Assembly: GCF_000758665.1 (NCBI RefSeq)
Contig: NZ_CP009285.1
Coordinates: 7,750,001-7,814,000, forward strand
Length of the DNA stretch: 64,000 nucleotides
DNA from: Paenibacillus borealis
GTDB taxonomy: Bacteria; Bacillota; Bacilli; Paenibacillales; Paenibacillaceae
Reading direction: 5' to 3'
The first letter of the stretch is position 1. The number at the start of each line of letters is the position of its first letter. A program made the position numbers and the translations under genes. Positions 35,216 to 38,559 of this stretch are shown here, piece after piece. The notes beneath the pieces are model-generated. The model had not been told where the DNA came from, searched no databases, and saw only the letters and a program-made list of their open reading frames with translations.

Positions 35216-36700
35216 ATGAAGAGAAATCATACAATGATGCAATTTTTTGAATGGCATGTTGCCGCAGACGGAGAGCACTGGAAACGCCTCGCCCAAATGG
35301 CCCCTGAACTGAAGGCCGCCGGAATCGATTCCGTATGGGTCCCACCTGTAACCAAGGCTGTCTCCGCCGAAGATACCGGTTACGGCGTATACGATTTATA
35401 TGATTTGGGCGAATTTGATCAAAAGGGTACCGTGCGCACGAAATACGGTACAAAGCAGGAGCTGGTCGATGCGATTGCCGAGTGTCTGAAGAACGGCATC
35501 GCCGTCTACGTGGATCTGGTCATGAATCATAAGGCCGGAGCGGATGAGACAGAGGTCTTTGAGGTCATCGAAGTTGATCCTAACGACCGTAATAAGGATA
35601 TTTCCCAGCCATTTGAGATTGAAGGCTGGACCAAGTTTGATTTCCCGGGGCGCGGGGATGAATATTCCAGCTTCAAGTGGAACCATACCCACTTCAACGG
35701 CACGGATTTCGATGCCAAGGCAGGCCGGAACGGTGTATTCCGGATTGACGGCACGAATAAGGGCTGGAATCAGAACGTAGATGACGAATTCGGCAACTAT
35801 GACTATCTGATGTTCGCCAACATTGATTACAGCAATGAAGACGTGAAGAACGAAATGCTGAACTGGGGCAAATGGCTGGTCGATACCCTGCAGTGCAGCG
35901 GCTACCGCCTGGATGCCATTAAGCATATCAACCATGAATTCATCAAGGAATTTGCGGCGGAGATGAAAAAGAAACGCGGCGAAGACTTCTACATTGTCGG
36001 CGAATTCTGGAACTCCAATCTGGAAGCCTGCCGCGAATTCCTGAACACAGTCGATTACCAGATTGATCTGTTCGATGTGTCGCTGCACTACAAGCTTTAC
36101 TCGGCTGCGCTGGGGGGCAGGGATTTCGATCTGACGCATATCTTCGACGATACGCTGGTCCAGACGCATCCGGCCAATGCCGTCACCTTCGTCGACAACC
36201 ATGACTCCCAGCCGCATGAGGCGCTGGAATCATGGGTCGGCGACTGGTTCAAGCAGAGCGCCTATGCCCTGATCCTGCTGCGGAGAGACGGATATCCCGT
36301 CGTCTTCTACGGGGACTATTACGGTATCGGCGGACCAGCCCCGGTGGAGGGCAAGAAGGACGCTATCGATCCTCTGCTCTGCGCCCGCTATAACAAAGCC
36401 TACGGTGAACAGGATGATTACTTCGACCATCCCAACACCATCGGCTGGATGCGGCGCGGCGTTCCGGAGATCGAAGGCTCCGGCTGCGCCGTAGTGATCT
36501 CGAACGGGGACAACGGAGAGAAGCGGATGTTCGCCGGCGAAGAGCGCGGCGGGGAAGTATGGGAGGATCTGACCGGTAACCGCCAGGAGACTGTCACGAT
36601 CGGAGAAGACGGCTGGGCGGTATTCCCGGTTAATGGCGGAAGCGTCTCGGTCTGGGCTCTGCCTGATCCGGAGCCGGAGGACGATTGCGTGAAAGAGTGA
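35216..36700 (+). CDS. Cytoplasmic alpha-amylase (GH13)
   Basis: 494 residues, GH13 family. The conserved regions are all present: VDLVMNHKAGAD, the nucleophile Asp in GYRLDAIKHINHEF, the acid Glu in IVGEFWNSN and FVDNHDSQP. There is no signal peptide (MKRNHTMMQFFEWH), so it acts inside the cell on maltodextrins or stored glucan. The length fits the cytoplasmic AmyA-type amylases. The start is well supported by AAAGGAGG. It is followed by a 1.2-kb gene-free repeat region. Confidence 0.94.
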   Translation: MKRNHTMMQFFEWHVAADGEHWKRLAQMAPELKAAGIDSVWVPPVTKAVSAEDTGYGVYDLYDLGEFDQKGTVRTKYGTKQELVDAIAECLKNGIAVYVDLVMNHKAGADETEVFEVIEVDPNDRNKDISQPFEIEGWTKFDFPGRGDEYSSFKWNHTHFNGTDFDAKAGRNGVFRIDGTNKGWNQNVDDEFGNYDYLMFANIDYSNEDVKNEMLNWGKWLVDTLQCSGYRLDAIKHINHEFIKEFAAEMKKKRGEDFYIVGEFWNSNLEACREFLNTVDYQIDLFDVSLHYKLYSAALGGRDFDLTHIFDDTLVQTHPANAVTFVDNHDSQPHEALESWVGDWFKQSAYALILLRRDGYPVVFYGDYYGIGGPAPVEGKKDAIDPLLCARYNKAYGEQDDYFDHPNTIGWMRRGVPEIEGSGCAVVISNGDNGEKRMFAGEERGGEVWEDLTGNRQETVTIGEDGWAVFPVNGGSVSVWALPDPEPEDDCVKE

Positions 36701-36815
36701 AGAGTGCAGATGAAGAGTCCAGAGTGAAGAGTGAGTATTGGAGCTTGGCCAGCAATAGCCATATACGTCCATAACACAGCCCTCCTAACGGCAGAGTACG
36801 GGTTAAGCATATCCC

Positions 36816-36888: not shown

Positions 36889-37030
36889 TATGAGCAAATC
36901 AGGCAGATTCATGCCAACCTGACCCGGTTTCCGTTGATTGACTGCTTGCAGCCAATTTCGGAAATGATTGAGTAAGCTACGGATTTCCAGTCCGAACAAA
37001 ATTGCCCTAACGGGTGGATCAGGCTGAGTT

Positions 37031-37093
37031 GTGCGGTCTGTGCGGTCTGTGCGGTCTGTGCGGTCTGTGTGGTCTGTGCGGCTTGTGTGGCTT
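37031..37093. repeat. 9-bp tandem repeat, seven copies
   Basis: GTGCGGTCT repeated seven times, four copies exact and the last three drifting (GTGTGGTCT, GTGCGGCTT, GTGTGGCTT). On the minus strand it would read as an Asp-Arg-Thr run, but no gene context supports translation. Confidence 0.85.
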
Positions 37094-37156
37094 GTGTAAA
37101 CTATAAAGGCCACTTAGTATTGCTGCTCCATTCAGACTGCTACTAAGGCAACCTTC

Positions 37157-37726
37157 TGGTGAAATCAGGGGCACTTTTGCTCCTCATTTCTTCCTTTGGC
37201 CCGCATCCGGCGAAATCAGGGGCACTTTTGCTCTTCATTTCTTCCTTTGGCCCGCATCCGGTGAAATCAGGGGCACTTTTGCTCCTCATTTCTTCCTTTT
37301 GCCCGCATCCAGTGAAATCAGGGGCACTTTTGCTCTTCATTTCTTTCTTTGACCCGCATCCGGCGAAATCAGGGGCACTAATGCTCTTCATTTCCACTTT
37401 GAGTTCACCCGACCGCTCACTTTCGGCGGGATTAGAGGGATTTATCCATTTGATTTTTCCATTTCGCCCACTTTCGGCGGGATTAGTGGGATTTATCCAT
37501 TTGATTTCTTCAGACCGCCCACTTTCGGCGGGATTAGTGGGATTTATCCATTTGATTTTTCCATTTCGCCCACTTTCGGCGGGATTAGAGGGATTTATCC
37601 ACTTGATTTCACCATACCGTCCACTTCCGGCGCGATCAATGGGATTTATCCCTTTAATTTTTCCATTTCGCCCGGTTTCTGGGGGATTCAGTTGGATTTC
37701 TGATACAAGAACACTTTCGTCCCTCA
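37157..37726. repeat. 51-bp tandem repeat array, about 11 units in two subtypes
   Basis: Subtype A (marker GAAATCAGGGGCACTTTTGC) recurs at 37161, 37212, 37263, 37314 and 37365, always 51 bases apart. Subtype B (marker CGGCGGGATTAGNGGGATTT) recurs at 37424, 37475, 37526, 37577 and, decayed, at 37628 and about 37679, again 51 apart. The step from A to B is 63 bases. The subtypes align (CGGCG start, a central T-rich part, CCC near the end), suggesting common origin. Because 51 is a multiple of 3 both strands stay open for about 200 codons, but neither frame has a ribosome binding site. Confidence 0.92.
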
Positions 37727-37818
37727 AGCGGATCTGCTCCAATTCCAAGAAACTTATCCAAGACATTAAGCACGTTTTATCGACTACAGACGGATATCAT
37801 AATTTCCCAAACACACAC

Positions 37819-37872
37819 AAATAAAAGAGGCGAATCCCGGCCGCAATGGCTGTGGAGTCACCTCTTTTATTT
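37819..37872 (-). terminator. Terminator of bioY
   Basis: AAATAAAAGAGG at 37819-37830 and CCTCTTTTATTT at 37861-37872 form a perfect 12-bp stem. On the minus strand the T-rich end follows the stem, 18 bases after the bioY stop. Confidence 0.8.
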
Positions 37873-37890
37873 GATCTGTGCTGTTACGGA

Positions 37891-38499
37891 TTAACGGCTG
37901 ATGGTTGACTTCTCCCCGTCTGCCCAGACACCGGTATCACTGTTTAAAATACGGTCGATCGGATATACCTTCCACACTGCCGTCACTACAGCTGAGCATA
38001 GGATTGCCTTGGTCAGATCGCCCGGAATGAACGGCCACATCCCTGCGGTCAGAGCCTTGGACAGCGAGTCCATACCCAGGGAATGGGCTAGCCACCACAC
38101 ACCGCCCGGGTAGACAAGCAGCGCACCGAAAATAAAGTTGGCCGCAAGCAGCTTCACAAAAGTATATTTATCCTGCTTAATACGCTGGGCGAAGAAGCCG
38201 ATCAGCCAGGCTACGAACGGCCAGGAGAATATATAGCCTGCGGTCGGGCCAGCCAGCACCGCGAGTCCGCCGCTTCCGCCCATCACCGGGAAGCCGGCAG
38301 CAGCAAGTCCGATCACGATCAGCACGGCGAGCGTGCCGTAGCGTGCTCCCAGGATGGAACCTGCCAGCATAACAGCCAGGGTCTGCATTGTAATAGGTAC
38401 TGTGGAGAAAGGCAGCGAGATCTTCAAATAGCTCAGGGCTATCATGACTGCAGCGAATAATGCACTGAATATCAGGCCGCGGGTCGTCCATTTCTTCAT
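37891..38499 (-). CDS. bioY: Biotin transporter substrate-binding component BioY
   Basis: 202 residues, five to six hydrophobic helices. PFSTVPITMQTLAVMLAGSILGARYGTLAVL and GGSGGLAVLAGPTAGYIFSWPFVAWL are characteristic of BioY, the biotin-capturing S-component of ECF transporters. The ATG at 38499 has GGGAGG upstream. It is divergent from two ECF module genes, so the full transporter is encoded here in two transcripts that face away from each other. Confidence 0.94.
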   Translation of the reverse strand: MKKWTTRGLIFSALFAAVMIALSYLKISLPFSTVPITMQTLAVMLAGSILGARYGTLAVLIVIGLAAAGFPVMGGSGGLAVLAGPTAGYIFSWPFVAWLIGFFAQRIKQDKYTFVKLLAANFIFGALLVYPGGVWWLAHSLGMDSLSKALTAGMWPFIPGDLTKAILCSAVVTAVWKVYPIDRILNSDTGVWADGEKSTISR

Positions 38500-38530
38500 T
38501 GCCGGGATTACCTCCCTTTTTTTAAGGATC

Positions 38531-38559
38531 ACTATAACATCCCCCTCCGGATACATCAA
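38531..38559 (-). promoter_or_regulatory. Promoter of bioY
   Basis: On the minus strand -35 TTGATG (38554-38559), 17 bases, -10 TATAGT (38531-38536). On the plus strand a TATAAT lies at 38575-38580, probably the -10 of the divergent ecf operon. No clear BirA operator was seen. Confidence 0.6.

Follow-up and report, generated by a model that had tools for sequence, protein, structure and literature searches.

The 51-bp repeat array downstream of a bioY-like gene is one copy of an element that is multi-copy, non-coding and intergenic at the loci examined, lies 3′ of leading-strand genes, is oriented with replication and is missing from orthologous sites in more distant relatives. The copy described here lies in the window, by which we mean the whole stretch of 64,000 nucleotides analysed, positions 7750001-7814000 of the single 8,156,808-base contig of the host genome (G000). 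The best explanation, to which we give a probability of roughly 45%, is that the element is a non-coding, modular interspersed repeat, similar to BOX, which was dispersed by replication-coupled insertion downstream of leading-strand genes and whose copies are by now for the most part inherited in place, with rapid turnover of units. Interspersed bacterial repeats are usually described as mirroring gene strand bias; in the nine genomes examined this family, with dozens of loci in each, holds to a single orientation on each replichore, far beyond gene bias.

Throughout, U denotes the plus strand of the window and T its reverse complement. Tandem Repeats Finder (TRF) reported two 51-bp arrays, at 37161-37394 (4.6 copies, 92% matches) and 37414-37699 (5.6 copies, 82% matches), and a profile HMM found 10 units with steps of 51 bp plus a single 63-bp step; a further B-type unit, the sixth, is degenerate and lies at the 37650-37699 end. 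The two programs together place the two blocks of 51-bp units at 37149-37699, in the approximately 1.2 kb between the end of an amylase ORF at 36700 and the end of the bioY ORF at 37891. The initial annotation's account of about 11 units of 51 bp, in two subtypes with one 63-bp step and within a 1.2-kb gap, is thereby confirmed. Its delimitation of the feature as the block 37157-37726 was not borne out, as a leader at 37681-37800 and a tail at 37006-37145 are common to other loci. The whole element extends over approximately 36994-37873, the 51-bp array being its core, and in the T sense the order is bioY, its intrinsic terminator, leader, B-type block, A-type block and tail:

37891..38559, minus strand: bioY-like gene on the leading strand, T-upstream of the element (ORF and gene context)
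37819..37873, minus strand: bioY's own intrinsic terminator, immediately T-upstream of the element; hairpin AAAAGAGGTGACTCC..GGATTCGCCTCTTTT and a T-rich tract, read from the sequence
37681..37800, minus strand: leader, the conserved 5′ module, consensus ATGATATTCGTCTGTTGTGGATAAG... (leader HMM, E 2.3e-21)
37414..37699, minus strand: B-type block, five to six 51-bp units with T-sense core GGGATAAATCCC (TRF, unit HMM, subtype string BBBBB)
37395..37413, minus strand: joint of the B and A blocks, where the step is 63 bp instead of 51 (unit HMM spacing)
37149..37394, minus strand: A-type block, five 51-bp units with T-sense core GAGCA..TGCCCC or GGGGCA..TGCCCC (TRF, unit HMM, subtype string AAAAA)
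37006..37145, minus strand: tail, the conserved 3′ module, including a 9-bp tandem repeat TGTGCGGTC at 37030-37097 (TRF and HMM)
36994..37021, minus strand: terminator-like end of the tail, hairpin CACCCGTTAGGG(C) then AATTTTGTTC, read from the sequence

The gene at 37891..38559 is called bioY-like here in part from its position. Its terminator was scored at -26.4 kcal/mol by a terminator detector, with the stem ending 20 nt before the leader. The leader was first spotted as a flank repeated 10 times in the host genome, and the degenerate outer end of the B-type block overlaps it. The tail HMM matched twice in the window (E 8.5e-12 and 3.2e-6), and the terminator-like hairpin of the tail is followed by TTTTGTTC, an ending also found in other tails. 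An imperfect short repeat, AAGAGTG, was noted where the amylase gene ends and immediately beyond (window 36693-36734).

A search for marker copies, their strand and their context, as the initial annotation had suggested, uncovered a genome-wide, multi-species, intergenic family. The 14-base marker GAAATCAGGGGCAC occurred 412 times in the host genome with up to two mismatches, against 19 occurrences of its reversed control; the array as a BLASTN query gave 73 matches, and the host family comprises at least 45 located loci. A survey of 40 fetched 20-kb regions plus the window yielded 49 clusters with approximately 390 units, many of these clusters being pieces of one array split by an insertion sequence (IS), such that 41 clusters remained once pieces within 3 kb were merged. 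The unit step was exactly 51 bp in 297 of 344 cases, and steps of 50 and 52 bp occurred 27 times. None of the host clusters overlapped a gene called by a simple codon-score caller, which misses some genes, including IS genes. Of 100 genomes of the genus, 23 contained the A-type pattern. A tandem B-type pattern, which presupposes the core and a 50-52 bp period and so cannot by itself show their conservation, was found in 30 of 394 genomes of the family, representing 4 of 19 genera, with no control matches.

The modular layout of an end module, a variable tandem module and another end module recurred in the host: HMMs of the leader and of the tail each matched approximately 20 host loci, on the same strand as the array and never on the opposite strand. 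Neither module could be seen by eye in 20 array regions fetched from five other genomes. In the fetched loci only two leaders and one tail lay more than 250 bp from any array, one of these two leaders, at L071, being upstream of an array, and no autonomous partner was seen between leader and tail; at L105 a leader stands without units, likewise behind a terminator. Modular hairpin repeats are a kind already known from BOX of Streptococcus pneumoniae, which the available excerpts of PMC3049150 describe as boxA-boxB(n)-boxC, intergenic, hairpin-forming, enriched between convergent genes and variable in unit number. These traits, and the arrangement of two end modules around variable tandem modules of similar size, are common to both; two ordered unit subtypes and a terminator-adjacent leader, in contrast, do not appear in the BOX descriptions of those excerpts (PMC3049150). 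The likeness rests on architecture and not on sequence, and we claim no kinship. Consistent with the initial annotation, which knew of no family that fits, we found no published description of this one in searches of one open-access literature library.

The orientation of the arrays follows replication, a feature that the initial annotation had missed together with the terminator adjacent to the leader. All 175 located loci in nine genomes, taken among the matches listed and from our own array calls, fit one orientation per replichore. In the host genome, U lies on the minus strand from 0.27 to 4.31 Mb and on the plus strand from 4.53 to 7.83 Mb; the orientation thus switches somewhere between the arrays located at 4.310 and 4.527 Mb. 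Both the sign of the GC skew and the strand carrying most genes flip at 4.39-4.44 Mb, as mapped in 20 independent regions together with the array regions. All 45 of the host loci located have T as their leading sense, while leading genes make up 457 of the 588 called (77.7%), and gene bias alone would give such a result with a probability of approximately 1e-5 (0.777^45) if the loci are independent. By comparison, the excerpts of PMC3049150 give 60.8% of BOX insertions as leading, mirroring gene bias. The other eight genomes fit the two-arc model without exception among the matches listed (G058, 23 loci; G045, 16; G059, 15; G084, 20; G066, 21; G086, 18; G080, 5; G087, 12), the model being free to place the switches in these genomes, where origin and terminus were not mapped. 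The orientation of two host entries was set by majority: L092, which contains an inverted unit block and a plus-strand match, and L106_6840, which is nearly symmetric (scores 218 and 212). In G085, which is outside the nine, a B-type tandem row (G085:C1:1700645) is opposite in strand to its listed neighbours and may be an exception to the polarity. The arrays listed also seem to avoid a broad region around the presumed origin, which measures 0.6 Mb for the host (7.83-8.16 plus 0-0.27 Mb) and up to approximately 1.7 Mb among the matches listed for G066, G086, G084 and G087.

The arrays are equally constrained with respect to genes. In 48 of 49 clusters the gene on the T-upstream side is directed towards the array; these are not 49 independent cases, given the 41 clusters left after merging. 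The exception is L090, and it too has a hairpin and T-tract terminator. On the other side of the array the gene is co-oriented in 28 of 49 clusters and convergent in 21, and although either orientation would suit the genes of a convergent pair, the arrays follow the leading-strand gene. With duplicate L073_9689 and internal matches left out of the leader rows, a strict terminator detector placed an intrinsic terminator before 11 of 20 leaders, 10 of them within 30 nt, against 6.8% of controls. A looser detector, written after the strict one and looser on controls as well, found a terminator whose stem ended 15-41 nt before the leader in 19 of 20 cases (15 of the 19 at 15-22 nt), while 112 of 448 control points (25%) had one within 45 nt. 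As leader and tail were unseen in the five other genomes, the terminator rule is shown for the leader-bearing subfamily only. The array beside the UDP-glucose dehydrogenase gene begins 35 nt past the stop codon with no terminator seen between.

Comparison between species pointed to both copying and inheritance in place. At seven genes the sister species G058 and G040 hold units at the same place and in the same sense (14 of 14 cases), with unit counts that differ between them at all seven loci. In the more distant G080 only one of six tested loci was occupied and five were empty; arrays beside the UDP-glucose dehydrogenase and helicase genes were present also in G084, G066 and G045. A bioY relative stood beside the amylase gene in 21 of 80 fetched amylase loci, and the amylase-bioY spacer carried units in three of these 21 syntenic relatives (P. 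phytohabitans, P. tritici and P. piscarius) and none, at the sensitivity of the HMM, in the other 18. The unitless spacers that were inspected were mostly 97 to 190 bp long, leaving no room for an array, with longer ones at L214 and L220 (approximately 770 bp) and in P. silagei (449 bp). Unit identity was 0.873 within an array, 0.819 between orthologous arrays and 0.724 and 0.716 between loci. This gradient, combined with the empty orthologous sites, argues that new loci were gained by copying and then evolved locally. Neither a target-site duplication nor a clean pair of empty and filled sites was obtained at the loci compared. In P. phytohabitans (L209) another tandem repeat, GGCTGGCTGAGGTGGCGAAT-like, was observed between the bioY stop codon and the terminator.

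Each unit has the potential to form a hairpin, the dyad of an A-type unit on the plus strand being GAAATCAGGGGCACTTTTGCTCCTCATTTC. Using one unit per array and subtype (93 rows), the nine stem pairs were 81.5% Watson-Crick, a value that fell to 46.9% or less when the partner column was slid by 1-3 and that was reached in 0 of 500 shuffles. Changes between the two subtypes come in pairs: at columns 33-40 the pair is C-G in 261 units but G-C in 86, and at columns 30-43 it is G-C in 260 units but A-T in 88. Thus the initial annotation was mistaken in seeing no terminator-like dyad in the units inasmuch as a dyad exists; no T-run follows it, so the judgement that the units are not like a terminator stands. 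With wobble pairs allowed, stem pairing in the alignment was 0.907 on U against 0.847 on T; U was favoured in the alignment and in host B units, and T in the B units of other genomes. Better pairing on the U strand is not what an RNA intermediate of T sense predicts. Strict B-then-A order in the T sense was seen in 33 of 42 two-subtype arrays, counted after removal of overlapping windows, and seven were strictly reversed; in other genomes the order was B then A in 13 of 16 arrays. Seven arrays have an IS in the hairpin loop, six in the host (L073, L081, L085, L089, L100 and L110) and one in G086 (L300). This IS, which we take to be of the IS3 type, carries rve/HTH_21 and HTH_Tnp_1 domains and was found in both orientations among the seven sites. 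Because it inserts in the hairpin loop, it suggests that the dyad matters as DNA.

Several explanations other than replication-coupled insertion could account for part of these data. The main rival, which we consider rather unlikely, is a functional polarity mark, whereby a DNA-binding protein would read the B and A hairpin sites in the order in which replication passes them and selection would keep their orientation; segregation, nucleoid organisation, fork passage and spore chromosome translocation are among the roles that could be proposed for it. A mark of this kind would explain the orientation equally well, without exception at the 175 loci of nine genomes among the matches listed, and the B-then-A order of 33 of 42 arrays perhaps better, and it agrees with persistence at orthologous loci and with the recurrence of the hairpin core and 51-bp period in 30 genomes and four genera even though the sequence between the cores differs. 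On the other hand, it leaves the empty orthologous loci of near relatives unexplained, 364 of 394 sampled genomes are without arrays by one strict B-type pattern, and the freedom of unit number to vary (between 3 and 18 at some loci) would be surprising in a mark that the cell needs. Less probable again is a role in the transcript, in which a REP/BIME-like 3′ element would stabilise or end the upstream mRNA. The location of all arrays 3′ of genes, with the upstream gene pointing in, would suit such a role, as would the folding of host units, which is somewhat better than that of shuffles (mean z -1.65 to -3.24). The A units of other genomes, however, fold weakly (z -0.67 and -0.93), many arrays follow a complete terminator, and with approximately 22% of genes on the lagging strand a transcript role alone would put about a fifth of the arrays behind lagging-strand genes, yet none of the 45 located host loci has the lagging orientation. 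REP/BIME elements with their RAYT proteins are also intergenic palindromic units in arrays 3′ of genes with IS in hairpin loops, but the host has no Y1 transposase, and the arrays described here have strict replication polarity and head-to-tail units of 51 bp.

We regard as very improbable that the arrays are independent local satellites, formed by slippage without copying between loci and polarised by strand-biased slippage or composition: identity is indeed higher within arrays than between loci, and the units of the T strand are purine- and G-rich, as is the leading strand, but many loci share both subtypes, mostly in one order, as well as a common leader and tail, and this cannot arise without copying. 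Slightly less credible still is a cluster of DnaA boxes that titrates or regulates DnaA. The leader consensus contains the DnaA-box-like TGTGGATAA, one exact box occurs in 9 of 49 host clusters, always in the T sense, and exact boxes number 0.209 per kb in host elements compared with 0.0107 per kb in a background of 1.118 Mb, an approximately 20-fold excess; several such boxes are also seen in the bioY spacers of three relatives, P. tritici, P. silagei and P. piscarius, and exact boxes in the T sense were noted in the bioY-amylase spacers of L210, L211 and L212, several of them approximately 12 bp apart in P. tritici. Against this, the box is mutated in the window copy and no exact box was found in 22 array clusters of five other genomes, so that boxes are not a constant part of the element, and the leader boxes, being homologous by descent, are not independent evidence for a DnaA role. 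A repeat-protein gene on either strand is scarcely conceivable and was rejected. ORFs of 207 aa (minus strand) and 221 aa (plus strand) cross the array, and three database proteins resemble the minus-strand ORF; the substitutions nevertheless fit no reading frame. The initial annotation had suggested looking for coding bias in the substitutions between units, and the outcome was negative, with observed/expected nonsynonymous/synonymous ratios between neighbouring units of 0.90-1.15 whichever of the six frames was used. Even the best frame is uninterrupted in just 16 of 43 arrays, no Pfam or NCBIfam family scored above the cut-off, and the 27 steps of 50 and 52 bp mentioned above also count against a gene. 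A known RNA family was likewise rejected, as Rfam had no match to the window at gathering level and none to 36900-37900 even at E up to 1. CRISPR arrays also consist of a leader followed by regularly spaced units; the window array differs in having no unique spacers, since the entire 51-bp unit repeats.

The closest behavioural parallel to the replication-coupled insertion that we favour comes from group IIC introns, which the arrays resemble in behaviour and not in sequence. According to the available parts of PMC4424553 and PMC3898094, IIC introns insert at intrinsic terminators, and introns without an endonuclease prime from nascent strands at replication forks; PMC8919778, in the part available, describes bacterial-C introns as strand-biased and relates the way they expanded in Firmicutes to terminators and to genes on the leading strand. 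Profile PF08388 matched 60 of 100 genomes of the genus. In six multi-copy genomes, 49 of 50 group II intron copies among the matches listed fit the two-arc rule with the protein sense leading, and a terminator-like hairpin stood directly before the intron in 11 of 12 fetched copies (L197-L208). Eleven of these 12 align to two reference copies with 86 to 99.9% identity over approximately 1.9 kb, and Rfam group II intron domains were present in all six introns scanned. Like the arrays, these introns therefore lie directly after intrinsic terminators, in one orientation relative to replication and in the same genus; unlike them, the window element has no reverse transcriptase, no Rfam intron match and different end sequences. 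The host genome had no match to PF00078 (RVT_1), PF08388 or PF01797 (Y1 transposase), the controls of the PF01797 search being positive, and hence no known machinery for retrotransposition or single-strand transposition is at hand. Mobility of the RAYT/IS200 type was rejected on the lack of PF01797 matches. A resident group II intron acting in trans was rejected on the lack of an intron protein or RVT_1 match in the host and on the lack of association across the 100 genomes, where introns do not track arrays (14 of the 23 genomes with arrays have introns, as do 60 of 100 overall); an extinct or foreign intron may have been the mobiliser.

Replication-coupled insertion into the lagging-strand template would be expected to produce strict orientation, 3′ placement and the terminator junction, and the introns show that such insertion happens in this genus. 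New copies would enter via single-stranded DNA of the lagging-strand template, and leader-bearing copies would insert next to an intrinsic terminator, beside its hairpin and T-tract, in a manner resembling that of group IIC introns. Unit number would then grow or shrink locally through slippage or recombination between the hairpin units; most loci would by now be inherited in place, and the mobilising enzyme may be gone from the host. Among the structural, RNA-based and selfish functions that the initial annotation had left side by side, copying to new loci with internal order kept fits the selfish or mobile one. More tentatively, we propose that this is a replication-locked family, consisting either of B-then-A arrays that enter only via the lagging-strand template, with machinery distinct from known group II introns and from Y1 transposases, or of long replichore polarity marks in Paenibacillaceae. 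If the pattern arose by insertion, the arrays would be a record of a terminator-aimed, replication-coupled mobility pathway acting on a non-coding element, whose machinery can be sought; if it arose by selection, they would reveal a replication-polarity signal.

Other tandem repeats were observed next to members of the family. A second repeat of roughly 52 bp (AAATGTATGCGAAAAACCGAATACAATGTGCC...) adjoins some of the arrays (L071, L073, L102, L294 and L300). At approximately 9500-9900 of L105, the unitless leader is followed by a tRNA-like gene and then by a longer unit, repeated in tandem, that includes its 3′ end (GGGACGTCAAGTAACAGCC...).
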